A stretch of 49,350 nucleotides of DNA, taken from Ignavibacteriota bacterium. GTDB lineage: Bacteria; Bacteroidota; Ignavibacteria; UBA10030; SZUA-254. This document shows, in pieces, positions 2,958 to 26,628 of this stretch. Location of the stretch: NCBI GenBank assembly GCA_016212665.1, contig JACREZ010000036.1, positions 1 to 49,350 of the forward strand, written 5' to 3'. The first letter of the stretch is position 1. Each line of letters opens with the position of its first letter. Below the pieces are notes generated by a model. The model was not told the DNA's origin, did not search any database, and was given only the letters and a program-made list of their open reading frames with translations. The position numbers were made by a program, and so were the translations under genes.

Positions 2958-2983
2958 GTTTTCCTTATTGTTTATGTAACATA

Positions 2984-4495: not shown

Positions 4496-4534
4496 AGTAG
4501 ATTGAAAATCACTTTGTGCGTTCTCAAATCTCTC

Positions 4535-6568
4535 TCACCAGATTTTCGCCTTCTCTCTTCTCACCATTGGGTCCCCTTCTTTCGCATCGAATGCTTTCAT
4601 CCATTCTTCCATGTTTGAAACCGGACCGATGCAACGGAACCGACCGGGAGAATGGGGGTCGGTGTTCAAACGAAGCCGTAACGCTTCATCACGAATGTTC
4701 TGTCTCCAAATCTGACCGAACGAAATAAAGAATCGTTGTTCGGCAGTAAAGCCATCAATATCTGCCGGTCGTCCGTTCTTCCGGAAAGAACGTTGCAACG
4801 CATCGTACGCGATGGAAAGTCCGCCGAGGTCGGCAATATTTTCTCCCAACGTTAATGCGCCGTTCACATGTTGAGTATCGAGCGCAACGTAATTGTTGAA
4901 TTGTTGTTCAACGACTGCCGCCTTTGTTTCATACAATTTACTATCACCGTCCGTCCACCAGTCAATCATGTTTCCGTCGGCATTGAACTTTCTTCCTTGG
5001 TCATCAAATCCGTGTGTGATTTCATGTCCAATGACAGCGCCGATTCCGCCATAGTTCACAGCGTCATCTGCATTCGCATCAAAAAAGGGCGGCTGTAATA
5101 TTCCGGCAGGAAAAACAATCTCGTTCATGCTCGGATTGTAATACGCGTTCACCGTCGGCGGCGACATTCCCCATTCGGTTCTATCCACCGGTTTTCCAAT
5201 CTGACTCAGATTGCGTTTGAACTCAAACTGAGAAGCACGAAGAACATTAATAACGTACGCGCCTCGTGTAATATCAAGTGAAGAATAATCACGCCATTTA
5301 TCGGGATACCCAATTTTCACAGTAAACGCATCTAATTTTCTCAGCGCTTCCTTCTTCGTTAAGTCACTCATCCAATCTAGATTCTTCACCTTCTCGCGAA
5401 ATGCATCCTGAATATCTTTCACCATTTCCAACGCCCGCTTCTTCGCCTGCGCGCCGAATGCTTTTTCGACATACAGTTGTCCGAGCGCCTCTCCGATATT
5501 TCCGTCAATGGTTTGAAGAACGCGTTTCCATCGCACTTTCATTTCTTTCTGCCCCGTCATTGCACGACCAAAGAAATCGAAATGTTCATTCACAAATTCT
5601 GAACTCAAATAATCTGCTGTTGCATTGATAAGATGCCAACGCAGATATGTTTTCCAACTCTCTAACGTCACATCCATAACCATGTTTGCAACTTCTTTAA
5701 TGAATTCCGGCTGACCGACATTCACATCGCCGGGATTTGGTAAGCCAATGCCTCTGAAATATTGTTGCCATGGGAACATGGGTGTCAATTCACTCATCTC
5801 ATCTAACGTCATTCTGTGGTAACTGTTTTCCGGGTCACGCAACTCAACTCTTGTCAGAGATGCTTTTGCGAGGCGTGTTTCCATATCCATCACAATCTTC
5901 GCGTTTGATTCAGCGGTAGATGCATTGTCGCCAAGTAATTGGAACATCTTCGCAACATGCGCTAAATACTTTGAGCGTAACTCTTTCGACTTATCATCAT
6001 CCTTCAAATAATAATCTCTGTCCGGTAATCCAAGTCCGCTCTGAAACAGGTTTGCAATAATCGCTGTACTGTTCTTCATATCCTGCATCGCGTAAAATGC
6101 AAAAGGAACTCCGGCTGATGCTGTGTGAAAATATGCAATCAAATCAATTAACTCTCTTGAGTTTTTTATTTTTGCAATTCGGTTGAACTCATCAGCCAAC
6201 GGAAATGCCCCTTGCTTTTGAATACTCAACGTATCCATCCCGCTGAAATAAAAATCGCCGACCTTCTGAACGATACTTCCCTTTTTCGCTCCGGTGTTTG
6301 CCGCGGCTTCGTCTAATATTTCATGGAGGATTTTGAAATTCCGTTCCTGCACTTCACTGAAACTTCCCCACCGACTCTGGTCGGGTGGTATCGGATTGTT
6401 CTTCATCCACGTACCGTTCACATAAAGAAAGAAATCGTCTGTTGGCTTAACAGATATATCGAAATTTTGAGTATCAATCGGTTTCTGTGCAAACGAAACA
6501 GATACCAGAAAACTCAGCGCAGTGAAAAATAAAATAACCTTTGGAAAATGAAATGTGTTAAAAACCAT
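4535..6568 (-). CDS. M13 (neprilysin/PepO-type) zinc metallopeptidase
   Basis: A secreted 677-residue endopeptidase that cleaves peptides. A signal peptide ends at about residue 27 (SFAQ). The M13 N-terminal domain covers about 40-425 and the catalytic domain about 480-677. The zinc site GHEITHGFDDQG (HExxH near residue 515) and the downstream ENIADLGG motif, which supplies the third zinc ligand, are intact. So are the substrate motif NAYY and the family C-terminus GDPMV...IW. An AAAGG ribosome site precedes the ATG. Length and motifs match the full-length family, and no lipobox is seen, so it is probably periplasmic or released. It is a single gene between repeat elements and hrpB. Confidence 0.95.
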   Translation of the reverse strand: MVFNTFHFPKVILFFTALSFLVSVSFAQKPIDTQNFDISVKPTDDFFLYVNGTWMKNNPIPPDQSRWGSFSEVQERNFKILHEILDEAAANTGAKKGSIVQKVGDFYFSGMDTLSIQKQGAFPLADEFNRIAKIKNSRELIDLIAYFHTASAGVPFAFYAMQDMKNSTAIIANLFQSGLGLPDRDYYLKDDDKSKELRSKYLAHVAKMFQLLGDNASTAESNAKIVMDMETRLAKASLTRVELRDPENSYHRMTLDEMSELTPMFPWQQYFRGIGLPNPGDVNVGQPEFIKEVANMVMDVTLESWKTYLRWHLINATADYLSSEFVNEHFDFFGRAMTGQKEMKVRWKRVLQTIDGNIGEALGQLYVEKAFGAQAKKRALEMVKDIQDAFREKVKNLDWMSDLTKKEALRKLDAFTVKIGYPDKWRDYSSLDITRGAYVINVLRASQFEFKRNLSQIGKPVDRTEWGMSPPTVNAYYNPSMNEIVFPAGILQPPFFDANADDAVNYGGIGAVIGHEITHGFDDQGRKFNADGNMIDWWTDGDSKLYETKAAVVEQQFNNYVALDTQHVNGALTLGENIADLGGLSIAYDALQRSFRKNGRPADIDGFTAEQRFFISFGQIWRQNIRDEALRLRLNTDPHSPGRFRCIGPVSNMEEWMKAFDAKEGDPMVRREKAKIW

Positions 6569-6692
6569 ACTGACCTTTGTTAATAAGTAATGAAACGGCG
6601 GTGAAATTAAGAAAAATCTCCCAGAGAACCTAAGAATTTTTCTTCGCTTACGGAATCAACGCGAGCTTGTTTCGTAGTCAACACCGCTTACG

Positions 6693-9161
6693 CTAACGTC
6701 TCTTCGTCCGTCTCGTCGGCTCTGCTTCTTTCGGATTTTCGGGCCAATAATGTTTCGGATACCTTCCACGCATATCTTTCCGAACATCTGGATACGCGTT
6801 CTTCCAGAAACTCGGCAAGTCCTGTGTAATCGCAAGCGGACGATGCGCCGGAGAAAGAAGATGCAACAGGACTTTCACTTTTCCGTTTGCAACTGTTGGC
6901 GTTTCTGTCTCACCAAACATTTCCTGAAGTCGAACGGCAAGGACTGGTTGCTCGCCTGAATAATCTATCGGGATATGTGAACCGGTCGGAACGGTGAGAT
7001 GCGTTGGCGCAAGTCGTTCAACTTCCCGAAGTTGTTCAAACGAAAACATTGCACGAACAATCATACTCATATCAAGTTTCTGCAAGTGCACACGCCGCGT
7101 AATTCCTGAGAGATACGGTGCAAGCCAATCCCCCAATGTTTCAAGGAGATATTCATTACTTACATTCGGCAATGATGATTTTGTAAGATTATGAATACGC
7201 AGCCACTCATTTCGCGTTCGGATTGAATTTGCATCCTTCGTCCACGGTAACGCATCAAGCCCAAGCAATCGAATTCCATCGAGCATCGCATTCGTTGTTT
7301 TCTCAGAAGAAGTTGATAACGGAACCACCGATAGTTCCAACGCACCGAGACGAGTAATCTTTCTTGCTACTACCGATTCTTCACGTTCATCCCAATGGAC
7401 TTCTTCCGCTTCGGTAAGTTGTTCATCGAATGCAAGACGGATTTGTTTCTCAGACAACGGAGCGGCAAGAAATATTTTCACTTCACTCCCTATGCCGTCC
7501 ACTTCCCCAATAGCAAGAAACTCCTCCCGCGAAAGCATACTCTTCTTTGGCAAGAGTGCGCCCGTACCTGAAACCATTTGATACCGTCCTTCGCCCGAAT
7601 CTCGTCGCCGTGCAACTCGTTCAGGATAAGCGAGAGCAAGCAACAAACCCAATTCTTTTTCATCACTCTTTCCATGTCTGACATTTAGAAGGTGACGAAG
7701 TCGTACAGATTGTTCCTGTGCTCGTTCCAAAGCAAACCGACTCGCCCCTTTTCCTGTTTCCAACACATGCCATCGCGAAGCAAGGTCAATATCCGAATCG
7801 TTCTCGCCACGGAGAATGTCTCGCTCCTCCAACAACGCCGCCACATCGCACGCCATACTTCCAAAATGCAATTCCTTCCCTTTCAACAACATGTGCGCAA
7901 GCCGCGGATGCACGGGAAGTTCAGCCATTGCTTTGCCATGTGGCGTCAATTTTCCTTTTGCATCAAACGCGCCGAGTTGCGTTAACAAGGTTCGCGCTTG
8001 TGTCAGATGTTTTTCCGACGGCGCATCGAGGAAGCGAAGTCGCTTTGCCTCGGCATCTCCCCATCGTGCAAGTTCAAGAGCGAACGGCGCTAAATCACTT
8101 ACAAGAATTTCCGGAGAAAGAAACTTTGGCAATTCCGTTTGTTGTTGTTCTGTCCACAAACGATAACAGACTCCGGGCGCTTGTCTTCCCGCTCTTCCTC
8201 GTCGTTGTTCCGCGTTCGCCTGAGAAACTTGCGTTGTCACAAGTCCCGACATTCCCCGCTTCGAATCAAATCGCGGTACACGCGCAAGTCCCGAATCAAT
8301 CACAACTTGAACTCCATCAATCGTCAAACTTGTTTCGGCAATACTTGTTGAGAGAATGATTTTCCTTTTCCCGTTAGGCGCTGTTGCAAGCGCGGTTTGT
8401 TGTTGCTTTGGCGATGCCTCACCAAACAATGTGTGAATGATAATTTCTTCTGGCAATTCCTTATCAAGCAATAACGATTCAACTCGCCGAATCTCCCTCT
8501 GCCCCGGAAGAAACACCAGCACATCTCCTTCATCTTCCTTTATTGTTTGATGAATTGCTGAAACAATGAGCGGCTCAATCGCTCCATCATGAACTCGTTT
8601 CAAGTAATGTGTCGTAATCGGAAATGTTCTCCCTGCGCTTTGAAGAACCGGCGCATTCCCAAGCAATGAAGAAATTGAAATCCCATCAAGCGTTGCTGAC
8701 ATGACAAGAATTCTCAAATCATCCCTCAACTGTTCCTGAACATCCAATGCAAGTGCAAGTCCAAGGTCAGCGTGGATACTTCTCTCATGAAATTCATCGA
8801 AGATGAGCAAACCGACATCGGATAAATCCGGCTCGCTCTGAATCATACGAGTCAAAATTCCTTCCGTCACCACTTCGATTCTCGTCTTCGCTCCAACTTT
8901 CGCGTCTCCTCGAATTCTGTATCCAATTGTCGCTCCCACGTTCTCATGTATTTGCTGAGCCATGTATGACGCCGCCCGTTGCGCCGCCAATCGTCTCGGC
9001 TCCAGCATAATAATCTTCTTCCCGCTCAACCACGATTCATTCATCAACGCAATCGGAACCCTCGTTGTCTTCCCCGCGCCCGGCTCGGCGGAAAGAACAA
9101 CGTTGGTAGTCGTTTGCAAAGTCGAACGGAGTTCGGGGAGAATGTTTTCTATTGGAAGCAA
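6693..9161 (-). CDS. hrpB: ATP-dependent helicase HrpB (DEAH family)
   Basis: This 822-residue protein is a DEAH-box RNA helicase of the HrpB family. Visible motifs are Walker A GAGKTT (residues 28-33), DEFHERS (motif II, about 120), SAT (motif III, about 155), STSIAETSLTI (motif V) and QRRGRAGR (motif VI). The helicase-associated HA2 region follows, then the HrpB-specific C-terminal domain that ends in a basic tail (RRTKRR). Length matches the family (about 800-840). HrpB proteins are widespread; their exact RNA substrate is generally not defined. No frameshift was seen. Confidence 0.95.
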   Translation of the reverse strand: MLPIENILPELRSTLQTTTNVVLSAEPGAGKTTRVPIALMNESWLSGKKIIMLEPRRLAAQRAASYMAQQIHENVGATIGYRIRGDAKVGAKTRIEVVTEGILTRMIQSEPDLSDVGLLIFDEFHERSIHADLGLALALDVQEQLRDDLRILVMSATLDGISISSLLGNAPVLQSAGRTFPITTHYLKRVHDGAIEPLIVSAIHQTIKEDEGDVLVFLPGQREIRRVESLLLDKELPEEIIIHTLFGEASPKQQQTALATAPNGKRKIILSTSIAETSLTIDGVQVVIDSGLARVPRFDSKRGMSGLVTTQVSQANAEQRRGRAGRQAPGVCYRLWTEQQQTELPKFLSPEILVSDLAPFALELARWGDAEAKRLRFLDAPSEKHLTQARTLLTQLGAFDAKGKLTPHGKAMAELPVHPRLAHMLLKGKELHFGSMACDVAALLEERDILRGENDSDIDLASRWHVLETGKGASRFALERAQEQSVRLRHLLNVRHGKSDEKELGLLLALAYPERVARRRDSGEGRYQMVSGTGALLPKKSMLSREEFLAIGEVDGIGSEVKIFLAAPLSEKQIRLAFDEQLTEAEEVHWDEREESVVARKITRLGALELSVVPLSTSSEKTTNAMLDGIRLLGLDALPWTKDANSIRTRNEWLRIHNLTKSSLPNVSNEYLLETLGDWLAPYLSGITRRVHLQKLDMSMIVRAMFSFEQLREVERLAPTHLTVPTGSHIPIDYSGEQPVLAVRLQEMFGETETPTVANGKVKVLLHLLSPAHRPLAITQDLPSFWKNAYPDVRKDMRGRYPKHYWPENPKEAEPTRRTKRR

Positions 9162-14640: not shown

Positions 14641-14728
14641 AAAAGAAACATAGAGAGATTTTTTGGAAAAGAAAAATGAACTTATATATTGTCATAAATC
14701 AATCATCATTTATTATTGTTCTTTTGTT

Positions 14729-16117
14729 ATGAAAAAACCATTCCCCGCTTTGCTTATGAGTTGCATTGCAATAACTGTAGGGTTTGTTGTTGTGTTTCTC
14801 CTCGCCACCAAACCTCTCAAGGGTTCACAACCTTCTCAACCTCTGTCCGGAAATCCCGGGCTCGGCAAAAATATTTTTGATTCGCGTTGCGCTGTCTGCC
14901 ATGGAGCGAACGGTGATGGTAAGGGTATTGTCGCTGTTAATCTCCATCCCAAGCCACGCGACTTCACCAAAGGATTATTCAAGTTCCGTTCAACAGAATC
15001 GGGAAGCATCCCGACTGTCGATGACCTTGCCCGTATCATTAACGAAGGGATACACGGGACTGCGATGGTTGGATGGAAAGAATTCATCACAGGCGATTCG
15101 CTTCAGACGCTGATTGCGTACATACAATCATTTTCCACACGATTTCAAAACGAACAACCCAAACCCGTATCTGTCTCAAACGCGATTCCTTCCTCAGTAA
15201 AAAGTATTTCTGATGGAAAAATTGTGTATGAAAAATTAGAGTGTGCAAGTTGTCATGGAACTGCGGGAGATGGAACTGATGCAATTGCGAGAGATTTCAA
15301 TGATGAATGGGGAAACATCATCGCCGCAACAAATCTGACTGAGCCGTGGACATTTCGAAGCGGCGCGTCTGCCTCCGATATTTATCTCAGATTAAAAACC
15401 GGAATTGATGGAACTCCGATGCCCTCGTACAGCGAAAGCGCAAGCGAACAGGATTTGTGGAACCTTGCAAACTTTGTTGCTTCACTCGGACGAAAACCTG
15501 CGTGGCAAATGAACGAGAATGAATTACAAACTCATTACAGCAAGTTGGATGAAACCAACAAATCAAATCCGGTACAACGTGGAAAATATTTAGTCGAAGT
15601 TTTCGGATGTGCGGATTGCCATTCACCATTCACCGAAGGACGCTCTGTTATGGAACAATTCAGAATGGCGGGCGGGTCTCGTTGGCGAATCGGACCGTAC
15701 GGAGATTTTTACACTCCCAATTTGACTTCAGACAAAGAAACCGGACTTGGTAACTGGACTGATGAAGAAATAAAGGAAGCAATAACGAAAGGAATCGTCA
15801 GGGGCGGCAGAAGAATGTTGCCTTTCCCGATGGGATGGACAGGATACTCGATGCTAACGAAAAATGACCTCAACGCGATTGTCGCATACTTGAGAACTAT
15901 TCCACCGGTACACAACAAAATTCCTGAGCCGGAACCGTTAAATATTTTTTCGTACATGTGGGGAAAATTTAAAATGTTGATTCTGAAAGAAGATTTTCCA
16001 ATAATTATTTATCCGGAAAATTCGGGACAAGCGCAAGCAACAAGTCAAACCAACACAAGCAACAACAACATTGCTCTGAAGTTTGAACCTGTTCACACAT
16101 CAGGAAAGGCAAACTAA
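14729..16117 (+). CDS. Three-haem membrane-anchored cytochrome c
   Basis: The ATG at 14729 gives a 462-residue protein beginning with a basic-hydrophobic anchor (KKPFPALLMSCIAITVGFVVVFLLA). An upstream TTG at 14663 would add 22 residues and is less likely. Three haem-binding sites are visible: CAVCH (54-58), CASCH (172-176) and CADCH (294-298). Candidate distal Met ligands lie in GTAMVGW, GTPMPSY and LPFPMGW. The third domain resembles the cytochrome subunits of membrane dehydrogenases (RGKYLVEVFGC...NLTSDKETGLGNWTDEE). It should carry electrons on the outer face of the inner membrane. The donor and acceptor are not encoded nearby. It is followed by one base and then the second cytochrome gene. 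Confidence 0.9.
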   Translation: MKKPFPALLMSCIAITVGFVVVFLLATKPLKGSQPSQPLSGNPGLGKNIFDSRCAVCHGANGDGKGIVAVNLHPKPRDFTKGLFKFRSTESGSIPTVDDLARIINEGIHGTAMVGWKEFITGDSLQTLIAYIQSFSTRFQNEQPKPVSVSNAIPSSVKSISDGKIVYEKLECASCHGTAGDGTDAIARDFNDEWGNIIAATNLTEPWTFRSGASASDIYLRLKTGIDGTPMPSYSESASEQDLWNLANFVASLGRKPAWQMNENELQTHYSKLDETNKSNPVQRGKYLVEVFGCADCHSPFTEGRSVMEQFRMAGGSRWRIGPYGDFYTPNLTSDKETGLGNWTDEEIKEAITKGIVRGGRRMLPFPMGWTGYSMLTKNDLNAIVAYLRTIPPVHNKIPEPEPLNIFSYMWGKFKMLILKEDFPIIIYPENSGQAQATSQTNTSNNNIALKFEPVHTSGKAN

Positions 16118-16118
16118 C

Positions 16119-16721
16119 ATGAAAAAGTTTTTCAAATGGTTTGGTATTATCGTCGGATGTTTACTTGTCATTGCATTCGTAGCGTTTCTTTATTTGATTC
16201 CTCCCTTCACGTTGGCTCCGCCCGAAACATTCAGTCAACAGGAAATAGATGCGGCTCCTTCAGTCGCGCATATTTCTGACCCGGCAACTCGGCTCATTGC
16301 CGAACGAGGAAAATATCTTGTCACCGTCATTGGTTGCACCGGCTGTCATACATCCGGAGGCGAACAGGGTCCTCAATGGGAAAAATATCTCGCGGGCGGA
16401 ATGAAGTTTCAAGCGAAGGAATACGGAACGGTTATCTCCCGAAATCTCACACCCGATTCACAAACCGGACTTGCGCGCCGTTCCGATGAATATGTGAAAA
16501 ATGTTCTGCGAAGCGGAGTTGATGAAACAGGAAATATCATGCTCGCAATGCCATGGAGCGCATACTCCAATCTAACCGTAGAAGACCAACATGCTGTTGT
16601 CGTGTATCTCAGAAACTTGAAATCGGTTCGACACGAAATTCCCGAACCGCAACCTTCAACAATGCCTGATGATAAGAATGCTGTTGAAAGCGCTTGGGGT
16701 GGAGATTACGCGAGGCACTGA
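16119..16721 (+). CDS. Single-haem membrane-anchored cytochrome c
   Basis: The ATG at 16119 has a strong ribosome site (AGGAAAGG, 16102-16109) inside the end of the preceding gene. The 200-residue product has an N-terminal membrane anchor (residues 8-30) and one haem site CTGCH (73-77), within RGKYLVTVIGC. It is homologous to the third domain of the upstream cytochrome (shared RGKYLV, NLT-D-TGL, IPEPQP), so the pair arose by domain duplication. Its last 28 codons recur twice as remnants at 22511-22602 and 22732-22791. Electron-transfer role inferred. Confidence 0.9.
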   Translation: MKKFFKWFGIIVGCLLVIAFVAFLYLIPPFTLAPPETFSQQEIDAAPSVAHISDPATRLIAERGKYLVTVIGCTGCHTSGGEQGPQWEKYLAGGMKFQAKEYGTVISRNLTPDSQTGLARRSDEYVKNVLRSGVDETGNIMLAMPWSAYSNLTVEDQHAVVVYLRNLKSVRHEIPEPQPSTMPDDKNAVESAWGGDYARH

Positions 16722-16905
16722 TTCAGTTTCCAGTTTTCAGTTTCCGGTTTTCGGTTTCCTGTTTATAGTTCTTTGTTGAAAGTTGTCGGTCTACGACTCG
16801 TTTAGTTGACAGTTTTAGTTCTTCGTTAACTGATTGAAAGAAAATTAGACATGGGATTTGAGACACATATCCATATCTCATATCCCATATCCCATATCGC
16901 ACAAC
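16722..16905. repeat. Low-complexity spacer: TTTTCAGTTTCC-type and CATATCCCATAT-type words
   Basis: From 16726 the sequence repeats CAGTTTCCAGTTTTCAGTTT and close variants. From 16862 it repeats CATATC/CATATCCCATATCCCATATC. Both stretches are degenerate tandem words without coding potential. They separate the cytochrome gene from the comM remnant. Confidence 0.65.
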
Positions 16906-16910
16906 TTTCT

Positions 16911-16985
16911 CTACAAGTTCTGCCACAAATTTCTATCAAGCGCTCGGTACTGAATTGCTTCACTCAAGTGTTCAGGGCAAATACT
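16911..16985 (-). pseudogene. Remnant of a comM 3' end
   Basis: Read on the minus strand, this stretch encodes [20 protein letters not shown] followed by L and a stop. It matches the C-terminus of the intact comM at 24954 in 19 of those 20 residues. Over 22 aligned codons, 11 differ and 9 of those differences are synonymous. The rest of comM is absent. That pattern means it diverged while still under selection, so it was probably brought in from a related strain and is not an in-situ decayed copy. Confidence 0.88.
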
Positions 16986-17013
16986 TGGTGGTAGTATGCA
17001 AATTAGGGACGTG

Positions 17014-17706
17014 TCACAACTGTTCTATAAATTTTCTGTAGCCCTTACCTATGGGAATGGATATGCCATGAACTTCAACTTTATCGGCTGTGTATGACTC
17101 TATCTTGCTTAACGAAATGATAAAAGACCGGTGAATCCGCTTGAAGAGATTGACAGGTAAAAGAGATTCGATTTCGTGCGTACTCATTTTTGAGATATAA
17201 TCTTTCTTTGTTGTCTTGACCTTGATGTATTCCCTCTGGCTTTCTATGTAGATGATTTCAGAAAACAAAATTTTTACTTTCTTTTTTTGCACGCTGAGGA
17301 AAATAAAATCCTTCGTTCCTTCGCTTTCCTTGAATTTCAGATTGCCGCCTTGTTTCGCTTTAACTTTGGTTACTGCTGTTAAGAATCTTTGAAACTCGAA
17401 CGGTTTTAGGAGGTAATCTATGACATTGAAGTTAAACCCTTCTACCGCATACTGATGATACGCTGTTGTTATGATGACAGCGGGCGGCTGTAAAAGCGTT
17501 CTGAGGAAATCCATTCCTTTTAGTTTAGGAAGATGAATATCTAAAAAAATTAAGTCAACAGTATTTTTCTGCAAGTACTCAGTTGCAAGAATTGCATCTT
17601 TAAATATTCCTTGCAAATCCAGAAACGGTACCTCCATGATATAATCTGATAAGACCTTGATTGCTAATGGTTCATCTTCTATTATGATGCACGTTATCTT
17701 AGACAT
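17014..17706 (-). CDS. LytTR-family response regulator
   Basis: A 230-residue regulator from the ATG at 17706 (MSKITCIIIEDEP). The receiver domain covers 1-120, with acidic pocket E10/D11 and phospho-acceptor D56 in FLDIHLP; the T/S is at ITTAY and the Lys at LLKPFEF. The LytTR DNA-binding domain covers about 130-228 (IIYIESQREYIKV...FKRIHRSFIIS). It overlaps the kinase gene by 8 bases, so the two are coupled. LytTR proteins bind direct repeats about 21 bp apart, and such repeats lie in the adjacent divergent promoter region (18789-18839). That makes the sulfur operon the most likely target. Confidence 0.93.
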   Translation of the reverse strand: MSKITCIIIEDEPLAIKVLSDYIMEVPFLDLQGIFKDAILATEYLQKNTVDLIFLDIHLPKLKGMDFLRTLLQPPAVIITTAYHQYAVEGFNFNVIDYLLKPFEFQRFLTAVTKVKAKQGGNLKFKESEGTKDFIFLSVQKKKVKILFSEIIYIESQREYIKVKTTKKDYISKMSTHEIESLLPVNLFKRIHRSFIISLSKIESYTADKVEVHGISIPIGKGYRKFIEQL

Positions 17707-18742
17707 GGCTTGCAAGATTAATTTTTAACGTGGCAGTAAAAACAAATTCGAATTGCTCAACCGAGAGACTGTAATCGGTATAGAGTAATTTGAGTTGGCG
17801 TCTCAAATTGGAAAGGCCGATGCTTTCTTTTACGCCAATTTCTTGTGGAAGTGATTCAGCAGAATTCTTCACAACAAATACTAATTGTCGCTGCCCCACC
17901 GAAAGATGAATATCCACAAACGGTCGAGTTCTTGTTTCAGATACACCATGTTTGAACGCATTTTCTACTAATGGAATTAGCAGAAGAGGTGGAAATGCTT
18001 GTTTCATATCTTCAATGTCGTAGTTGAAGTTAACATGTAAGGAATCATCGTAGCGTAATTTTTCAAGAGAAATATAATCACTGATAATTTTCAATTCCTG
18101 TTCTATAGCGATGAACTCTCCGCCTGTTTCGTATAACATGTAGCGTAATATTTTCGATAGACGGAGAATTGATTCCGGCGCCAGATCGGATTTATCTCTT
18201 GCCAATGAGTAAATGTTATTCAATGTGTTGAATAGAAAATGCGGATTCGTTTGCGACTTGAGGTAGTTCAATTCTGCTTCCTGCTTTTCAATTCGTAGTT
18301 GCTGTGCTGCCTCCTTTAATTTTCGATAATCATAAATGTGTTTTATAATCCCAAAAAAGAAGCCGGAGAAAATGCTATATGGAACATGATATTCCACTCC
18401 TTTGAACACCGAAGCGTGTGTTATTAATGGAAAATATAGATGTAGCCCGATTCCAAGCGTCCTCCATGCATACAATCCGAAAGAACATAACATCACATGA
18501 ACCCAGATAAGCACTAACCCTACAAGAATTCTTTTCCATGATACTTTGATATAAGGCAGAGAATATTCGAAAAAGATGAAATTAATAACAATAACATAAC
18601 TGATCAACCAAACATGATTCCACGCTCTCTCCAGAAAGGTTTCCGGATTGATTGATAAATCAATAAACAACCATAACAAATAGTAAGCGGCGCCGAGCCA
18701 CAAATACAATTGAAATCGTTTTCTGTCTATTGATATTTTCAT
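17699..18742 (-). CDS. LytS-type membrane sensor histidine kinase
   Basis: A 347-residue kinase with four hydrophobic helices in residues 11-135, a short coiled coil (about 140-162), the His_kinase phosphoacceptor motif QTNPHFLFNTLNNI (His168) and an ATPase domain with VENAFKHG (N box) and IGLSNLRRQL (G box). There is no periplasmic sensing domain, so the signal is probably sensed within or at the membrane. It pairs with the overlapping LytTR regulator and diverges from the rhodanese/YeeE operon. Confidence 0.93.
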   Translation of the reverse strand: MKISIDRKRFQLYLWLGAAYYLLWLFIDLSINPETFLERAWNHVWLISYVIVINFIFFEYSLPYIKVSWKRILVGLVLIWVHVMLCSFGLYAWRTLGIGLHLYFPLITHASVFKGVEYHVPYSIFSGFFFGIIKHIYDYRKLKEAAQQLRIEKQEAELNYLKSQTNPHFLFNTLNNIYSLARDKSDLAPESILRLSKILRYMLYETGGEFIAIEQELKIISDYISLEKLRYDDSLHVNFNYDIEDMKQAFPPLLLIPLVENAFKHGVSETRTRPFVDIHLSVGQRQLVFVVKNSAESLPQEIGVKESIGLSNLRRQLKLLYTDYSLSVEQFEFVFTATLKINLASHV

Positions 18743-18762
18743 TTTGTTTTGAGTTAATCCGA

Positions 18763-18839
18763 ATCGTTTATCTCTTCTATTAAATTTTTCAGTCTACATA
18801 ATCTCCTTCGCAGTCTACGAATAACCTATAATCGTCTAT
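18763..18839. promoter_or_regulatory. Direct repeats with 21-bp period, putative LytTR-regulator sites
   Basis: Three 9-mers, TCAGTCTAC (18789), GCAGTCTAC (18810) and ATCGTCTAT (18831), recur exactly every 21 bp. A fourth, ATCGTTTAT, is at 18763. They fit the LytTR/AgrA-type site pattern W-M-M-G-T-T-N-R-K at six to eight of nine positions, and the spacing is the characteristic two helical turns. They lie between the kinase gene and the sulfur operon. Binding is inferred from the pattern. Confidence 0.6.
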
Positions 18840-18873
18840 CACAAAAAAAGAAATCACCGTATAGTTACTATGA

Positions 18874-18893
18874 GTATTTCATAATTGAAATAC
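18874..18893. promoter_or_regulatory. Perfect 8+4+8 palindrome, putative operator
   Basis: GTATTTCA (18874-18881) and TGAAATAC (18886-18893) are perfectly complementary around TAAT. The site lies just upstream of the proposed -35 box of the rhodanese operon, the usual place for a dimeric activator. Its AT-richness makes chance possible. Confidence 0.5.
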
Positions 18894-18906
18894 ACTATTC
18901 GTCAAC

Positions 18907-18934
18907 TTGAAGAAAATTAACTCTTGAATATACC
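18907..18934 (+). promoter_or_regulatory. Putative promoter of the rhodanese/YeeE operon
   Basis: TTGAAG (18907-18912) and TATACC (18929-18934) are separated by 16 bases. Transcription would start near 18941, about 22 bases before the ATG at 18963. A ribosome site AAAGGA (18951-18956) follows. Confidence 0.45.
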
Positions 18935-18962
18935 AAAATTAACAAATAATAAAGGATTAAAC

Positions 18963-20609
18963 ATGTTGAAAATATTGAAGCATAGCCTCCTCATCGTGAT
19001 TGTAGTTTGTTTGCATCTACCGCTGAATCTGATTGCGCAAGATGGCTTCAACGGTAATCTTGTCACAGTCAGTTGGCTTGAGAAAAACCTGAAAAATACT
19101 GATATCGTGTTGCTCGACGCATCACCTGCACAGATTTACATGAAGAAGCACATTCCCGGTGCAATCAATTACGACATCTTTACGTATGGTGTTCAGGAAC
19201 TGCCCGTCGCTGAGATAGAAAAACGCTATCAGTCTTGGGGAATAAGCCCTGAAAAGAAAATTGTCATGTATGATCAGGGCGGCACGTACATGGCTACAAG
19301 ACTTTTTTTCTCACTCGAATATTATGGCTTCCCTGTAAACGAACTTTTCATCCTTGATGGAGGCCTCGCCAAGTGGGAAGAAGCAGGGCTACCGGTAACG
19401 AAAGATGCGACTCCATCGCCGACCAAAGGTACGTTCAAAATCAACAAGATCAATGATGATATAAAAGCAACCCTGACTGAATTCCTGAACGCATCGGGAG
19501 ATACTCGTAACAATGTTTTAGTGGATGCACTCGACGCAGGTTGGCATTTTGGAGGTCAACAGTTTTTTGACAGACCCGGTCATGTGCCCAATGCCATACT
19601 AATGCCGAGCGCCGACTTTTTCAAAGCGGATAAAACTTTCAAGTCTCCTGAAGAATTAATAAAGATGGTAAATTATTTTGGTTTAACACCAGAACAAAAT
19701 TTTTACACTCATTGCGGAGGTGGAATTGCGGCAAGTGGTCCGTACTTCGCACTTAAATTCATCATTGGCTACCCCAAGGTAAAACTGCACTCCGGTTCTC
19801 AGTTGGAATGGGTTTCTGACAAAAGAGAACTGCCGCTCTGGACGTACGACGCTCCGCATCTCATGCGAAATATTGACTGGCTCAAGAGTTGGGGCGGAAA
19901 AATGTTTAGAATGTACGGAATCTCACAAGTTAGTATGGTTGATGTGCGACCTGCTCAGGAATTCTATCAAGGTCATTTACCTTTTTCTCTAAACATTCCT
20001 GTAGATGAATTCAAAAACAATATGAACGCCCCCGAAAAACTTTCTAAAATACTGGGACCAGCCGGCGTAGATGCAACTCACGAGGCAGTGATTATTTCCG
20101 GAGCCGGATTGACGAAAGAATCTGCTCTCGCGTACGTGTTGTTGGAAAAACTTGGACAGAAAAAAGTTTCAATCTTTATTGACCCGCTTGAAAAAGGAAA
20201 AGAAACCGGCAATGCTCTTACAAAAGATACGACATCGGTAGGACCGAAAACAGGAGCCAATTTCTTATCCATTCCTCCAACGACTTACCCGGTCAGTTTC
20301 CGAAAAGATGTGATTATCAAAGACTCAAAAAGTACAGAAGGTCAATACCCAAAATTATTTATCGCATCAGGAAAAAATATTTCCGGCAAAATTAAAGATG
20401 GCAAGGTAGTTCACGTCCCATATACAGAACTTGTAAAAGATAACGGCATCCCGAAAAAAGCGAATGAAATCTGGGATATTCTATCAAAAGCCGGTGTGTC
20501 ACGATACGCGGAAATTATCTGCTTCTCTGATGATCCGGGTGAAGCGGCAGTCAATTATTTTATTCTCAAACTCATGGGCTTCCCTGACATAAAAGTCTTG
20601 ATAATGTAA
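18963..20609 (+). CDS. Exported multi-domain rhodanese-like sulfurtransferase
   Basis: The ATG at 18963 is chosen for its AAAGGA site and signal peptide (cleavage after LNLIAQ). The 548-residue protein holds four rhodanese folds: about 33-145, 165-293, 318-412 and 450-548. The first pair is arranged like a classical thiosulfate/mercaptopyruvate sulfurtransferase, with an inactive first domain (YDQGG, Asp104 at the catalytic position) and an active second domain (THCGGGIAASG, Cys251). Domain 3 has ISGAGLTKES without Cys; domain 4 has IICFSDDPGEAA with Cys520 roughly aligned. It probably moves sulfane sulfur in the periplasm and feeds the YeeE transporters encoded 2 bp downstream. Confidence 0.9.
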   Translation: MLKILKHSLLIVIVVCLHLPLNLIAQDGFNGNLVTVSWLEKNLKNTDIVLLDASPAQIYMKKHIPGAINYDIFTYGVQELPVAEIEKRYQSWGISPEKKIVMYDQGGTYMATRLFFSLEYYGFPVNELFILDGGLAKWEEAGLPVTKDATPSPTKGTFKINKINDDIKATLTEFLNASGDTRNNVLVDALDAGWHFGGQQFFDRPGHVPNAILMPSADFFKADKTFKSPEELIKMVNYFGLTPEQNFYTHCGGGIAASGPYFALKFIIGYPKVKLHSGSQLEWVSDKRELPLWTYDAPHLMRNIDWLKSWGGKMFRMYGISQVSMVDVRPAQEFYQGHLPFSLNIPVDEFKNNMNAPEKLSKILGPAGVDATHEAVIISGAGLTKESALAYVLLEKLGQKKVSIFIDPLEKGKETGNALTKDTTSVGPKTGANFLSIPPTTYPVSFRKDVIIKDSKSTEGQYPKLFIASGKNISGKIKDGKVVHVPYTELVKDNGIPKKANEIWDILSKAGVSRYAEIICFSDDPGEAAVNYFILKLMGFPDIKVLIM

Positions 20610-20611
20610 AA

Positions 20612-21130
20612 ATGCAAACTCCAAAACCATACCTCAATCCATTTCTTGCCGGCATCGGTCTTGGACTTGTTTTGCTTTCTGCATTTGTAGTTATGGGACG
20701 TGGGCTTGGAGCGTCGGGTGCGCTTAGTTCGGTCGTTACTTTCGGAGTCAATACGATTGCACCGGAACATGCACGTGCGAACACGTTCTACAAAGAATAT
20801 CTCAACACTACAAATGGAAATCCTCTGAATGACTGGCTTGTCTTTGAAATCGTTGGAGTTCTCATCGGCGGATTGATTTCCGGACTACTTTCGGGCAGAG
20901 TGAATCGGACTATTGATAAGGGTATTCGAGCAACAAACAGCACGAGATTTTTCTATGCTTTTTGCGGCGGTTTGTTAGTTGGTATTGGTTCTAAACTTGC
21001 CCGCGGTTGCACAAGCGGGCAAGCGTTGACTGGCGGTGCATTGCTGAGTGTCGGGAGTTGGGTTTTTATGTTGGCAGTTTTTGCAAGTGCATATGCGGTT
21101 GCTTATTTTTTTAAAAAGCAGTGGACATAA
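20612..21130 (+). CDS. YeeE/YedE-family membrane protein, first half-transporter
   Basis: A 172-residue protein with about four membrane helices and the family motif GIGSKLARGCTSGQALTGGA, with Cys133. In single-chain YeeE/TsuA thiosulfate importers this motif lies in one half and YCPGTC-type motifs in the other; here the halves are separate genes. It follows the rhodanese gene by 2 bp and precedes the second half by 4 bp. The likely substrate is thiosulfate or another sulfur species, by family analogy. Confidence 0.88.
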   Translation: MQTPKPYLNPFLAGIGLGLVLLSAFVVMGRGLGASGALSSVVTFGVNTIAPEHARANTFYKEYLNTTNGNPLNDWLVFEIVGVLIGGLISGLLSGRVNRTIDKGIRATNSTRFFYAFCGGLLVGIGSKLARGCTSGQALTGGALLSVGSWVFMLAVFASAYAVAYFFKKQWT

Positions 21131-21134
21131 CGAT

Positions 21135-21725
21135 ATGAATGCACCATTCTATCAACTCGGATTATTTGGAAACGATTCGGCTCTTTTTCTTGCAATCGTG
21201 ATAGGCATCGGATTCGGATTCTTCCTCGAGCAGGCAGGATTCGGCAGCAGCATAAAATTAGCACAGCAATTCTACTTACGCGATCTCACCGTTTTCAAAG
21301 TAATGTTCTCAGCAATCATTACTGCTATGCTCGGTCTCTTCTGGCTTTCATGGCTTGGATTCATTGACCTATCGTTGGTGAATATTTTACCGACATATCT
21401 TGTCCCGCAGTTAGTTGGCGGATTGCTGTTCGGTGTTGGATTCGTGATGGGAGGTTATTGCCCGGGAACGTGTTGCGTCGCGGCAGTAACAGGAAAAATA
21501 GATGGATGGATTCATCTCTTCGGAATGATGACAGGAATATTTCTTTTTGGAGAATTATTTCCGATTATGAGCGACTGGTATTCTTCTACATCAATGGGAG
21601 ATTTAACACTGCAACAAGTTTTCAATCTTTCACACGGCTCTGTTGTTCTCCTCATTGTTCTAATTGCACTTGCAGGATTTTACGGCGCTGAAAAACTCGA
21701 AGAGCGGTTTCGTTCAAAACAATAA
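21135..21725 (+). CDS. YeeE/YedE-family membrane protein, second half-transporter
   Basis: The ATG at 21135 lies 4 bp after the first half; the longer frame from 21048 would overlap that gene and is rejected. The 196-residue product has about five membrane helices and the motif FVMGGYCPGTCCVAAVTGK (Cys109, Cys113, Cys114). N-terminal FLEQAGFGSS is also typical of the family. With the preceding gene it should form the two-part sulfur-compound permease of this operon. Confidence 0.88.
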   Translation: MNAPFYQLGLFGNDSALFLAIVIGIGFGFFLEQAGFGSSIKLAQQFYLRDLTVFKVMFSAIITAMLGLFWLSWLGFIDLSLVNILPTYLVPQLVGGLLFGVGFVMGGYCPGTCCVAAVTGKIDGWIHLFGMMTGIFLFGELFPIMSDWYSSTSMGDLTLQQVFNLSHGSVVLLIVLIALAGFYGAEKLEERFRSKQ

Positions 21726-21738
21726 CATTTTGTCTATT

Positions 21739-22362
21739 ATGTCTCTTAATAAAATACTTGCCTCTGTTGCATTAACTCTGGCATTACTTGCGGCAATCAT
21801 CGGATTACCTAAACGAGACGACCCTCGCCTTGAAGAAATCGCTTTACTTATTCAATCCGAAGAAGACCACATCACTCCATTGGAACTTGCTGAACAAATA
21901 TTTTCAGGTAAGAAGATTCGTTTGATTGATATCCGGGATTCTGTTTCGCATTTCGAGGAACACATTCCCAAATCAGAATTGATGACCCTGCAACAACTTT
22001 TGAATAACGAAATGCAAAAGAATGAGTTAACGGTCATTTATTCAGAAGGTGGCATTCACGCCTCTCAGGCGTGGATGTTAATGAAAATGAAGGACTATGA
22101 TAGCATTTATACTCTATTGGGAGGATATAACGGCTGGAAAGAAACCATTTTGAATCCAAAATTACATGCTGGAAAAACCGAAGAAGAGAAAACAGAATTT
22201 GAACGTCGGAAAACGTTATGCCGGTTTTTTGGAGGAGAACCGATAATCATTACCGAGAAGATAATTCCCGAACAGAAACCCGTTCGTTCTAAACCCAAAC
22301 CGCCCCAGAAAATTCAACCCAAAAAATTAAAAGAGGAAGAAGACTTAAGATTTCAATGTTGA
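21739..22362 (+). CDS. Membrane-anchored rhodanese-like protein lacking the catalytic Cys
   Basis: The ATG at 21739 starts a 207-residue protein with an N-terminal membrane anchor (residues 5-23), so the rhodanese domain (about 45-137) faces the periplasm. The fold is clear (IRLIDIRDSVSHFEEHIP, LLGGYNGWKE), but the active-site loop reads VIYSEGGIHAS, with Ser102 where Cys is expected. The tail is Pro/Lys-rich (RSKPKPPQKIQPKK) and ends in Cys207. It ends the four-gene operon. A scaffold or sulfur-relay partner role is possible; enzyme activity is unlikely. Confidence 0.85.
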   Translation: MSLNKILASVALTLALLAAIIGLPKRDDPRLEEIALLIQSEEDHITPLELAEQIFSGKKIRLIDIRDSVSHFEEHIPKSELMTLQQLLNNEMQKNELTVIYSEGGIHASQAWMLMKMKDYDSIYTLLGGYNGWKETILNPKLHAGKTEEEKTEFERRKTLCRFFGGEPIIITEKIIPEQKPVRSKPKPPQKIQPKKLKEEEDLRFQC

Positions 22363-22510
22363 AACTATATTGAATTGCTCGATTTACTCAAGAGAGGAAC
22401 GAACCTGCCTACCCACCTCAAAACAAGGCAACCTTTTTCGGCGTTCTTGATTATACTTCTATGGAGAAAGAATGACTCACTTTGAATGAAGCATTACTAC
22501 TAAAATAATT

Positions 22511-22602
22511 GATACGAAATTCCTGTACCGCAACATCCAACAATGCCTGATGATAAGTATGCTGTTGAAAGCGCGTGGGGAGGAGATTACGCGAGACACT
22601 GA
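22511..22602 (+). pseudogene. Remnant of a cytochrome c 3' end (copy 1)
   Basis: The frame EIPVPQHPTMPDDK then YAVESAWGGDYARH and a stop matches the last 28 residues of the cytochrome gene ending at 16721, with four substitutions. DNA similarity starts near 22511 and reaches about 22616, past the stop. An in-frame TGA at 22510-22512 precedes it, so it cannot be a functional gene. It marks the right side of the sulfur cassette. Confidence 0.85.
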
Positions 22603-22634
22603 TTCTCTTTCCGGTTTACAGCTCATTTATCGTG

Positions 22635-22728
22635 CAGTCGGCTCTTTCGACCCGACTGATTTCTTCCTAAGGGATATATGTTCTTCGTGGCAAGCTGGGT
22701 CAGGTTGGAAAACCTGATCCCACACGAA
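22635..22728. repeat. Two small hairpins between the cytochrome remnants
   Basis: CAGTCGG (22635-22641) pairs with CCGACTG (22652-22658). TGGGTCAGGTT (22696-22706) pairs with AACCTGATCCCA (22711-22722) with one bulge, and outer arms TTCGTGG (22684) and CCACACGAA extend it. Neither is followed by a T-run. They look like members of dispersed palindromic families. The rest of 22363-22806 holds only the two cytochrome remnants. Confidence 0.5.
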
Positions 22729-22731
22729 ACA

Positions 22732-22791
22732 ATGCCTGAAGATAAACAATCAGTGGAAAGCGCATGGGGTGGAGATAACGCGAGACATTAA
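22732..22791 (+). pseudogene. Remnant of a cytochrome c 3' end (copy 2)
   Basis: MPEDKQSVESAWGGDNARH plus a stop matches the last 19 residues of the gene at 16119-16721 (MPDDKNAVESAWGGDYARH) in 14 positions. It is more diverged than copy 1 and ends in TAA, not TGA. No upstream cytochrome sequence remains apart from a short CACGAAA match at 22722. Confidence 0.8.
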
Positions 22792-22806
22792 TTTAATTCT
22801 GCATAC

Positions 22807-24906
22807 TTATTCCTTTCGAATAAAGGCAGGACGATCCGAAATATACGCAAACGCATGTTCACATTTTTTGACTATTTGCCCTCCACCGTCAAGATATTTT
22901 GAGCATGGACAGGTTCTATATTCACTATGGCAAATTGAACATTCTGAAGATGTAATAAAAAAAGAAGAGCAAATTGCCAATTTTTCTTCCTGAAGTGCAT
23001 AACCAAGATCGTCTTGTGTTGGATGAATCCTTAGTTCGTAAACTAATCCTTTTTTTTCTTTTGAATACAATACTTCGTATTCGGATGGTGGGAGAGGAGT
23101 TCTCTTTAGAAAAAAAATACCTGATGATTGATATATATCGGTTAGTTTTGGGCAATCAGAAATCGTTTTAAATTCAGAAGAAAGAAAATATGACATCTTA
23201 TCTGACCAATCCTGCAATGTTTCTAAATCGAAAGGGAGAAATGATAAGGGCGAGTTTAGCCAACTCAAAATATCAGCTACAGGTCCGACAAATGCAATTC
23301 GTAATTCCCTATCCGATAATGGTAAACCAAAAACAAACGATACAATTCGATCTTGATTTTTGCTCACAAATGCATTTATAAGTTGTCTAAAGGTATTAAG
23401 TAGTTTGTCTAAATTATTTTTTGTGTTATTGAACGGAATCTTGATCAAAGGAAAATCTGTATATAAATCCTCAAATGCTATAAAGTTAATAGAATCCTGC
23501 ACCTGTAGTAGAACATTATTACGTGCGCAAATTTTACGTAATTCAATAGTCTCTGTTGAAACGACTGTTAATGTTGTGTTGTCAACAGTAACAGTATCGG
23601 TGGGTACAATTTCCAAATATTCGGTTGGATGATTATCTAGATAATGAAAACTAACAGATACGCGAAAACCAGTTCCCTTTTTTATTGAATACGGAACATA
23701 CTTCAAAATGACATCAGAGGGATCCTCCTTTTCCAAAACTACTGGACGACCATCCTTTTCCTCTGGATTAATTCCAAAGTATTCTCCAATGAGATGATTA
23801 TCACGGAAATAATCGGAGATTAACCTTTTCCACTCTTCTATTCCTATAGGTATATCCAGTCGCCACAATTTTGTATATAATGTTTGCTTTCCTGCTTCAT
23901 TTATTTTCTTGTCCAATCTTAGAACCATTTCATCTTCATTGTACCCTCTAATGGCTCCATCAAGATGGATGATGTTTCGGGTTTTCTCATCAACTATTGA
24001 ATGTACATATCTACAACCGTAAAAGGATGAACCATCATCTTGCAAAACCGGACGATTCTTCAATTCTTCAATTTCCAAAATATGTTGACCATCCCTGGAT
24101 TGCCACCAGAATTCTGTTGATGATATAGAATGAAATAATCGTTCATACTTAGATGTTTCATGTCTCGTTACTCCAATTGGAATCGTCACGAGATCATTTG
24201 AAAATTTTGGACCCCACCAATATTCATGCTCTAAATGTTTTTGTTGTGTTGATGATAGCCCTACTAAATCAGAATCAAGTGCTATTGAACCATGGCTTTT
24301 ATATTTATCAATAACGGAAAAAAAAAGATCAAGAAATGCCGTGTTTAAAGTATTCAGCCTGGTATTAGATCTTCTATACCAAGGATGCGCAAATAAAAGG
24401 AGACCATTTTTTTCAAAGAGGCCTTGCCCCATATATTTTAATTCAGAGGTTGAAATAAGTGAATCTTTATCTGATAAATTGAAGAGTTCCGGAAAAACTT
24501 CCTTAGCAAGATTTTTTCGATAAAGAGTAACGCAGTTAGTTTCGAATGGAATCTCATTCCCCTGAAGATGCTCTTTAATCAGTTCATTAAGTTTATAAAC
24601 AAGATCAGGACTGCATATTTTATTAATATGTTCTGAGATATGTAGTCGTTGAGCAGTAATTACTGTTTCTATTTCAATGTCTGTTTCAGGTAAGATATTT
24701 AAACCTACAAGCCTTGTTAAGCCAGGTTCAAAGTAAACCATTGTCGGTCGCCCCCATCCTGCAAGACGTGTGATATCATGGCTAATATGCATTGGGATTC
24801 CACTATCCCACCTATCTGACAAAGCAGAAACTAAGCTTCCTGTTGAAAATTTTTGAAAATATAAATTAATGGAATCGGAGGTAAAGACGCAAAGCACTTC
24901 TTTCAT
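22807..24906 (-). CDS. Unknown 699-residue protein with a Cys/His-rich C-terminus
   Basis: I do not recognise this protein. It is intact, has no signal peptide or membrane helix, and is visibly AT-richer than its neighbours, with more AAA/ATT/TTA codons. The first 640 residues look like mixed alpha/beta soluble domains. The C-terminal 55 residues hold a cluster C646, C656, C659, H660, C666, C668, C682 and H684 (SSECSICHSEYRTCPC...KKCEH), which suggests one or two zinc sites. It sits alone between cytochrome remnants and comM, where the ancestral gene order was apparently broken. Horizontal acquisition is likely; a defence or regulatory role would be speculation. Confidence 0.8.
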   Translation of the reverse strand: MKEVLCVFTSDSINLYFQKFSTGSLVSALSDRWDSGIPMHISHDITRLAGWGRPTMVYFEPGLTRLVGLNILPETDIEIETVITAQRLHISEHINKICSPDLVYKLNELIKEHLQGNEIPFETNCVTLYRKNLAKEVFPELFNLSDKDSLISTSELKYMGQGLFEKNGLLLFAHPWYRRSNTRLNTLNTAFLDLFFSVIDKYKSHGSIALDSDLVGLSSTQQKHLEHEYWWGPKFSNDLVTIPIGVTRHETSKYERLFHSISSTEFWWQSRDGQHILEIEELKNRPVLQDDGSSFYGCRYVHSIVDEKTRNIIHLDGAIRGYNEDEMVLRLDKKINEAGKQTLYTKLWRLDIPIGIEEWKRLISDYFRDNHLIGEYFGINPEEKDGRPVVLEKEDPSDVILKYVPYSIKKGTGFRVSVSFHYLDNHPTEYLEIVPTDTVTVDNTTLTVVSTETIELRKICARNNVLLQVQDSINFIAFEDLYTDFPLIKIPFNNTKNNLDKLLNTFRQLINAFVSKNQDRIVSFVFGLPLSDRELRIAFVGPVADILSWLNSPLSFLPFDLETLQDWSDKMSYFLSSEFKTISDCPKLTDIYQSSGIFFLKRTPLPPSEYEVLYSKEKKGLVYELRIHPTQDDLGYALQEEKLAICSSFFITSSECSICHSEYRTCPCSKYLDGGGQIVKKCEHAFAYISDRPAFIRKE

Positions 24907-24953
24907 ATTCTTATAAATTCACATTCCTTATTTTACTTATAAAAATCAGCCAA

Positions 24954-26498
24954 TTAATTCTGCCACAAATTCCTATCAAGCGTCCGGTACTGTATAGCCT
25001 CACTCAAATGCTCTGGACGAATAGAAGTTGATTGTGCTAAGTCTGCAATCGTGCGTGCGACTTTCAAGATGCGGTCATACGCGCGGGCAGAAAGTCCGAG
25101 TTTGTTGATTGCCATCTTCATCAACTCCTCGCCCGAAGAATCTATCTTGCAAAATTCCTGTATCTCTTTCGATTGCATATCGGCATTGCTATACAAACCT
25201 TTTCTCCCTGCAAATCGTTTCGTTTGAATTTCTCTCGTCTGAATCACTCGTGAACGAATTGATTCGGAAGTTTCACTTACTTCTTTACTTGCAAGTTCTT
25301 TGTACTTCACTGCCGGAACTTCGATATGCAAATCAATTCTATCGAGAAGCGGACCGGAAATTTTTGCCATGTATTTCTGAATCATCCCTGTGTTGCACGT
25401 ACACTCCTTCGCCGGGTCTGTGTAGTAGCCGCAGGGACAAGGATTCATCGCACAGATGAGCATGAAGTTGGCGGGATAATCAATGGACATTTTCGAGCGG
25501 CTGATGGTCACGTGTCCATCCTCCAACGGCTGACGGAGAACTTCAAGCACGTTGCGAGCAAATTCCGGCAACTCATCAAGAAATAGAACTCCGTGATGCG
25601 AGAGTGAAATTTCACCGGGGCGAGGAATCGTTCCGCCGCCAACAAGCGCGCTATCGGATATTGTATGATGCGGCGAGCGGAACGGACGAGTTGCAACCAA
25701 GGCAGAATCGGGCGGCAACAATCCCGCAACGGAATGAATTTTTGTTGTCTCGATTGCTTCATCAAAATTCAATGGCGGAAGAATTGTCGGAAGTCGTTTG
25801 GCAAGCATCGTCTTTCCGGAGCCGGGCGGACCAATCATGATGATGTTATGACCGCCTGCCGCGGCGACTTCAAGCGCACGCTTTACATTCTCCTGTCCCT
25901 TCACATCAGAAAAATCCACCGCGTATTTTTGATGAGTGGAAAACACTTCGCGCAAATCCACATGAAATGGTTTGAGAAGTTTATATTCGCCGTTGAGAAA
26001 TGCGTACGTTTCGGAAAGCGATTCCATCGGATAGACTTCGATGCCTTCCACCATCGCGGCTTCACGTGCGTTTTCTTTCGGGAGAATTATGCCGCGTAGT
26101 TTTTGCTTTTTAACTTCCAGAGCAATCGGCAACGTGCCGTGAATCGGACGCAAGGTTCCATCAAGAGCAAGTTCGCCGAGAATCACAAAATCTTTCAGCA
26201 AATCGGAATCAACGCACTCGGACGCTGCAAGCAAACCAATCGCTATTGGTAAATCGTACGCCGAACCTTCTTTCTTTAAATCAGCAGGTGCAAGATTCAC
26301 CGTAATTTTATGTCCACCCGGGAAATACATCTCCGATGTTTTGATAGCCGCGTACACGCGGTCTTTACTTTCCTTCACAGCATTATCAGGCAAACCAACA
26401 ATGCTGAAGTAGGGCGAACCTTTCTGCAAATGAATTTCCACATCAACAATTTGCGCGTTGATGCCATACGTTCCGGCGCTGTAAATATGTGAGAACAT
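24954..26498 (-). CDS. comM: ComM/YifB family Mg-chelatase-like AAA+ ATPase
   Basis: The start is set at 26498 ([13 protein letters not shown]), the usual family N-terminus; a further 20 codons are open upstream. The 514-residue protein has the N-terminal ChlI-like domain (about 20-140), an AAA+ module with Walker [11 protein letters not shown] (about 222-231), Walker [11 protein letters not shown], the four-Cys stretch [11 protein letters not shown]...CTC, and the C-terminal Mg_chelatase_C domain. ComM is a helicase that promotes branch migration during natural transformation. Its last 22 codons recur as a diverged remnant at 16911-16985. Confidence 0.95.
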
Positions 26499-26628
26499 GT
26501 AACTCGTCTTTATTTGTTTGTCCGTCTGCAAATTACAGAACGTGGAAGTGAGATACAAATATTTCGTCTAGTTTTTGTTCACACATATACATTGAATCAT
26601 TGATTTACATTTAACAATCTTCCTTCTA

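Follow-up and report, generated by a model that had tools for sequence, protein, structure and literature searches.

A regulatory and rhodanese/YeeE module between comM and a second, diverged comM 3' end in an Ignavibacteriota bacterium

Gene content and repeats at the comM locus

The stretch analysed here, called the window, is the whole of contig JACREZ010000036.1 (49,350 nucleotides, nt; C36 in our numbering), one of 45 contigs in the 3.9 Mb draft genome of an Ignavibacteriota bacterium (GCA_016212665.1, here G000), and its subject is comM, a predicted magnesium chelatase homologue, together with a gene module that lies between the intact comM and a second, diverged copy of the comM 3' end. 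The same insertion topology at comM is shown in a congener (G002), and in both genomes the second comM end, or tail, has diverged as a working gene does. We searched G000 and 59 relatives (60 genomes) with the cytochrome, comM and the large rhodanese of the window, and matches were obtained in 32 of the 60 at an E-value (E) of 0.001, in 55 at E 1e-50 and in 6 at E 1e-40, respectively. Names such as LytS, YeeE and comM are based on Pfam matches or on reading of the sequence, and the functions that go with them are predicted; the Pfam Mg_chelatase match for the comM family was obtained on the G002 protein, which is 98% identical to the window comM.

A three-domain c-type cytochrome on the plus strand (14663-16117; three stretches matching Pfam Cytochrom_C) is the first of a cytochrome pair, and the second gene of the pair, hereafter the cytochrome, is intact (16119-16721, plus strand). 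Behind it, on the minus strand, lies the stranded comM 3' tail, which we call comM' (16917-16985; residues 492-514; 91% amino acid identity by tblastn, 83% nt identity). The module comprises, on the minus strand, a LytTR response regulator (17014-17715; Pfam Response_reg and LytTR) and a LytS-type histidine kinase (17699-18742; Pfam His_kinase) and, on the plus strand, a three-domain rhodanese (18924-20609; three stretches matching Pfam Rhodanese), two genes for YeeE-type sulfur transporter halves (20612-21130 and 21048-21725; both Pfam Sulf_transp, the listed start of the second overlapping the preceding gene) and a single-domain rhodanese (21664-22362; Pfam Rhodanese). Beyond the module are two cytochrome 3' tails on the plus strand, cyt' (22511-22621; 88% over 111 nt) and cyt'' (22728-22798; 80% over 71 nt, with a different stop codon at its end), both of which resemble the last 30 codons of the cytochrome, and then, on the minus strand, an open reading frame (ORF) of 699 amino acids without any Pfam match (22807-24906) and the intact comM (24954-26498; the ORF spans 24954-26558, and 26498 was taken as the start).

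A repeat search and self-BLAST paired the cytochrome 3' end with cyt' (16630-16740 and 22511-22621; 111 nt, 88%, E 3e-35) and with cyt'' (16658-16723 and 22728-22793; 66 nt, 82%, E 2e-12), and the comM 3' end with comM' (24958-25023 and 16918-16983; 66 nt, 83%, E 1.6e-13). All three are direct repeats, and their similarity greatly exceeds chance expectation. An earlier inspection of the letters (the sequence-only reading) had described a diverged comM 3' end behind the intact cytochrome, a diverged cytochrome 3' end after the cargo and an extra cytochrome remnant near 22732, all of which were borne out by these searches. The copies look like strain variants, and in a draft of 45 contigs they might reflect an assembly or binning artefact in which two strains were joined. 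Nevertheless, the longest exact runs between the copies are only 20 nt (cyt'), 12 nt (cyt'') and 14 nt (comM'), which makes a k-mer misjoin unlikely, and the comM part recurs in the independently assembled G002; we regard an artefact as extremely improbable.

The module at comM in a congener without the cytochrome

The congeners compared were G001 and G002, both fragmented assemblies (81-83% complete). An 11-kb contig of G002 (L061) carries comM (542-2086), the module (2409-7766) and a stranded comM tail of 188 nt (7823-8010), followed by GT87-type and family 2 glycosyltransferase genes. The modules of the window and G002 share 85.6% nt identity over 5265 nt, their gene order and relative orientations are alike, and in both genomes the cargo is framed by direct repeats of one chromosomal segment, the comM tail. 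A search of the G002 genome with the window cytochrome gave no match, no cytochrome remnant was detected between the second rhodanese and comM (P 0.78), and G002 has no counterpart of the 699-amino-acid gene. Since both comM copies are present there without the cytochrome, comM and comM' alone frame the module. The comM tail thus belongs with the module, and for the cytochrome tails a separate event has to be invoked, one observed in no genome but the window's. On its outer sides the comM-module-comM' block has different neighbours in the window and in G002 and, because the gene order around it is scrambled between these congeners, the flanks are unable to polarise the events.

This comparison bears on the proposal of the sequence-only reading, in which a single crossover inserted a DNA circle that bore the module and a diverged cytochrome/comM convergent junction, giving the order cytochrome, comM', module, cyt', comM in a single step. 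Order and orientation fit such an insertion, and at both junctions a cytochrome tail precedes a comM tail. The part of the proposal that found support is the diverged comM tail beyond the module, in a topology that recurs in G002 with the same module and in G014, G019, G032 and G033 with other cargo. No support was found for the arrival of the cytochrome in that event, as G002 has the module and the comM tail with neither cytochrome nor cytochrome tail; moreover, the two cytochrome tails and the 699-amino-acid gene demand further events, and a circle is not required, one-sided recombination of linear DNA giving the same comM topology.

Divergence of the comM tails

comM' differs from comM at 14 of 69 nt, and the changed codons are 10 synonymous and 2 nonsynonymous (neutral expectation, 9.3 nonsynonymous); for the G002 tail, 23 of 186 nt differ from comM, with 16 synonymous and 3 nonsynonymous codons (neutral expectation, 15.8 nonsynonymous). 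Nonsynonymous counts that low were reached in 0 of 5000 neutral simulations, for the window and for G002 alike. Because the differences are mostly synonymous, both comM copies were working genes for most of their separate history, and the bias of comM' argues against duplication in place followed by decay. A tandem duplication that took in the cytochrome and comM and later lost internal parts, which the sequence-only reading had named as the alternative, agrees with the direct order of the repeats, and a local copy is possible for cyt' alone, where the changed codons (4 synonymous, 5 nonsynonymous) form a pattern that neutrality allows; for comM' it is disfavoured by the synonymous bias found in both congeners, unlike that of a decaying duplicate, and as an account of the locus we consider it very unlikely.

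The unlike starts of the two tails, at codon 492 in the window and codon 452 in G002, mean separate joints or later erosion. The G002 copies share an identical run of 43 nt at their 3' end (P 0.012), which hints, marginally, at a recent exchange between them; the window copies have none (P 0.25). Parallel copies have likewise diverged in G014 (nonsynonymous divergence, dN, 0.23; synonymous divergence, dS, 1.38) and in G032 (dN 0.18, dS 1.11).

Lateral exchange and distribution of the module

As a core reference we used six flanking genes, in which the synonymous difference between the window and G002 is 0.55 (2666 codons; lowest 500-codon interval, 0.45). For LytS, the three-domain rhodanese and the first YeeE taken jointly it is 0.35 (1067 codons) and, within comM, the synonymous difference between the same two genomes is 0.69 before and 0.44 after codon 131 (P 0.003 for this downward step, a single comparison). 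Comparisons of G001 with the window and with G002 gave no comM step (P 0.39 and 0.88), a weak control that is near saturation. These values suggest that a block including the 3' part of comM may have been laterally exchanged, with comM as the putative anchor.

The module is patchily distributed. The large rhodanese was matched at E 1e-100 in 10 of 294 genomes of the class, the window's own included. G072 has the full LytTR-LytS/rhodanese-YeeE-YeeE-rhodanese set on a comM-free contig; G210, G257 and G282 have LytTR, LytS and the rhodanese, and G028 has LytS and the rhodanese, with no comM on the stretches read. In G049, from another family of the order, a contig begins inside comM, and the comM end is followed directly by the large rhodanese, with no second comM tail seen (L176 1-2365; G049:C77).

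The 3' end of comM as an insertion point in the order

A query with the C-terminal part (C-part) of comM (E 1e-12) matched 82 of 98 genomes, with more than one match in 14, including G036, G049 and G074, where the multiple matches may be pieces of one gene. Fifteen loci in 14 genomes were read closely, the extra copies in G010, G065 and G091 falling outside that reading. In one class of copies, found in 11 genomes, the C-part starts near codon 350 (339-378), and 13 of 14 such copies have a divergent XRE-type helix-turn-helix (HTH) gene within 75 nt, one being without it; one further copy lies at a contig edge. In the other class, which has no HTH gene, the tail starts at codon 452 (G002), 466 (G014) or 492 (window). 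A serine recombinase (Pfam Resolvase and Recombinase) was found at E 1e-60 in 6 of the 98 genomes, at 8 places, 5 of which, in 5 genomes, abut an N-terminal part (N-part) of comM ending near codon 360. The comM 3' end is a repeated insertion point in this order, partly used by a serine recombinase.

In G014, comM is followed by two ORFs, a comM tail and 3-dehydroquinate synthase, a gene that lies directly behind comM in G003 and G006, and a tail beside this gene is the arrangement expected of a native end that has been displaced. The ORFs between comM and the tail (L065 5711-8316) are an Mrr-type restriction endonuclease and one without Pfam match, a possible defence insert.

A comM split near codon 353 was observed in G009 (L167 8257-10786), G010 (L166 4858-7441), G012 (L169 1828-4360) and G055 (L172 4956-7485); at these loci the serine recombinase is convergent on the N-part, with slight overlap, and the C-part is found at another place, next to an HTH gene. 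G010 also has four tandem comM C-parts within 15 kb (L165, G010:C2; 8-265, 4123-4608, 11480-11974 and 14640-15038), with a few cargo genes between them; except for the one at the contig edge, each has a divergent XRE-type HTH gene beside it. This array looks like serial cassette insertion at comM.

The module might also have been brought by a comM-targeting serine-recombinase element with its own comM C-part; the recombination end with its HTH gene, as well as the beginning of the stranded copy, would then have been deleted later. The association of C-part copies with the HTH gene and of comM N-parts with the recombinase agrees with this explanation, and G019, G032 and G033 share the topology of the window, with an intact comM, cargo, HTH gene and extra comM C-part. 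Against it, the tails of the window, G002 and G014 start away from the crossover codon of about 350 and have no HTH gene, and no recombinase was matched at E 1e-60 in G000, G001 or G002. Alignments compared with shuffles gave no significant HTH remnant in the window (P 0.97) or in G002 (P 0.20), while in G014 a short match with gaps reached P 0.04; the similarity to an XRE-type gene that the eye picks up at the LytTR/comM' boundary of G002 is therefore not claimed. We judge a recombinase-borne origin of the module rather unlikely. More speculatively, comM would be an integron-like trading post in the order, where cassettes, each made of cargo, an HTH gene and a comM 3' part of its own, are inserted serially, restoring comM every time and displacing older ends outward. 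The window and G002 would then represent aged and eroded cases, whose cassette now passes between strains by ordinary recombination with its comM ends as homology arms; this broader picture we hold to be unlikely.

The cytochrome tails and the 699-amino-acid gene

The changes in cyt' relative to the cytochrome are compatible with neutrality (P 0.21, with low power), and so with neutral decay of a local copy, which counts against the circle. For cyt'', 5 synonymous and 4 nonsynonymous codons differ (P 0.007), compatible with a separately evolved allele that diverged under constraint, and constrained divergence in both comM' and cyt'' is what a circle carrying foreign alleles leads one to expect. 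Only 22-52% nt identity to the 10 relatives compared was found in the final 20 codons of the cytochrome; since this C-terminal stretch is private to the lineage, both tails come from this or a very near lineage, a source that also suits the circle.

If the cassette had been inserted at a cytochrome/comM junction, as the sequence-only reading supposed, genomes without it should have the two genes convergent. Close relatives of the cytochrome (E below 1e-30) occur in 11 other genomes, none of which has that gene and comM in convergent orientation; the two share a contig in G032 alone, where they lie 3.8 kb apart on the same strand. In partial agreement with the expected empty site, and in favour of the circle, G007, of the same family, has a distant c-type cytochrome convergent with comM, with one ORF between (L213 1968-5193; G007:C136), the closest thing to a cytochrome/comM junction found outside the window. 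This cytochrome has 37% identity over 163 amino acids to the first gene of the window pair and 25-27% to the second, and the arrangement may be chance, since c-type cytochromes are common in these genomes. With the evidence on both sides, the single-crossover circle appears to us possible, though doubtful.

No dispersed repeat was found between cyt' and cyt'': at E 0.01 the genome has no match to the 448-bp interval other than the interval itself and the cytochrome. The 699-amino-acid gene has no match in Pfam, PADLOC or viral contigs, no significant match in the PDB, and is absent from the other 14 family genomes searched (1 of 15). Its G+C content is 34-37%, against 44-48% across the cytochrome and comM, and the LytS/LytTR stretch is equally low. 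Residues 122-377 show weak similarity to a hypothetical protein encoded by three plasmids of Pseudomonas aeruginosa, near insertion sequences in one of them, and residues 161-377 match weakly one unannotated phage record; fold prediction gave no usable model (mean predicted local distance difference test score, pLDDT, 32).

A possible course of events

We hypothesize, and consider probable, that a foreign module entered at the comM 3' end, with the incoming comM 3' part completing the gene and the recipient's own end left as comM'. A portable LytTR/LytS and rhodanese-YeeE-YeeE-rhodanese module from a relative would have entered at comM in the window's genus, on incoming DNA presumably anchored by homology in comM and supplying the present comM end. 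At its other end the incoming DNA would have been joined within the tail of the recipient's comM, through illegitimate recombination if the DNA was linear or through a single crossover if it was circular, so that the native comM end would have been stranded on the far side of the module. Joints of illegitimate recombination often show microhomology. cyt', cyt'' and the 699-amino-acid gene would stem from one or more later exchanges or copies at the cytochrome/comM junction, in the window's genome only. The comM part is explained equally well by linear DNA of which one end joined illegitimately and by a single-crossover circle; since the codon-131 step is located upstream of where the tail starts, the evidence leans towards linear DNA or repeated conversion.

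Several observations weigh against this hypothesis. The stranded tails are short (23 codons in the window and 62 in G002), and the cytochrome tails between the module and comM are not predicted by it and need extra events. The module was found at comM in only one congener, both congeners being fragmented, and an empty comM site in the genus is not proven, since the G001 contig ends 0.7 kb after comM, where a PemK/MazF-type gene is found. The edge genes of the module (LytTR, the second YeeE and the second rhodanese) are near the core synonymous level, and codon bias could explain the lower synonymous divergence of its middle. In addition, a diverged allele is not seen in every parallel case, because the extra C-part of G033 is 98.8% identical to the intact comM.

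Relation to known systems and significance

Displacement of 3' ends by homology-facilitated illegitimate recombination was proposed for type VI secretion system immunity (effector) arrays of Vibrio cholerae and for Rhs loci (PMC5361080). As proposed there, homology-anchored incoming DNA would have added cargo here, and the old 3' part would have been pushed downstream as an orphan; in the window, by contrast, the anchor would be comM, which is still intact, the cargo consists of a regulator/sulfur module and the illegitimate joint is a putative one. Genes of the comM type are often targeted by serine recombinases, magnesium chelatase homologues being given as the target of 12.4% of predicted site-specific integrases (PMC10083194), and relatives in the order similarly carry a serine recombinase and extra C-parts at a targeted comM; the window tail differs in having no recombinase, HTH gene or codon-350 boundary. 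AbaR islands, reported to inactivate Acinetobacter comM (PMC7508600), also place foreign DNA at comM, whereas the window comM is intact. In Streptococcus pneumoniae merodiploids, transformation with partly repeated DNA is described as leading to duplications of about 100 to 900 kb (PMC3784515); duplicated segments are common to both cases, but here they are only short, diverged gene ends. Literature searches (comM or magnesium chelatase with serine recombinase or integrase, transformation, islands) yielded, among the records seen, none that dealt with the locus in this phylum, which is not proof of absence.

comM as an attractor of inserts is already known, and the window locus adds another case. 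According to the same report on Acinetobacter, comM is involved in natural transformation there (PMC7508600), so the comM locus may both receive foreign DNA and affect the amount received. The locus suggests that a competence gene can anchor the acquisition of whole functional modules without its own loss, the stranded ends recording the events, and the comM tails found across the order would be a countable record of such insertions.

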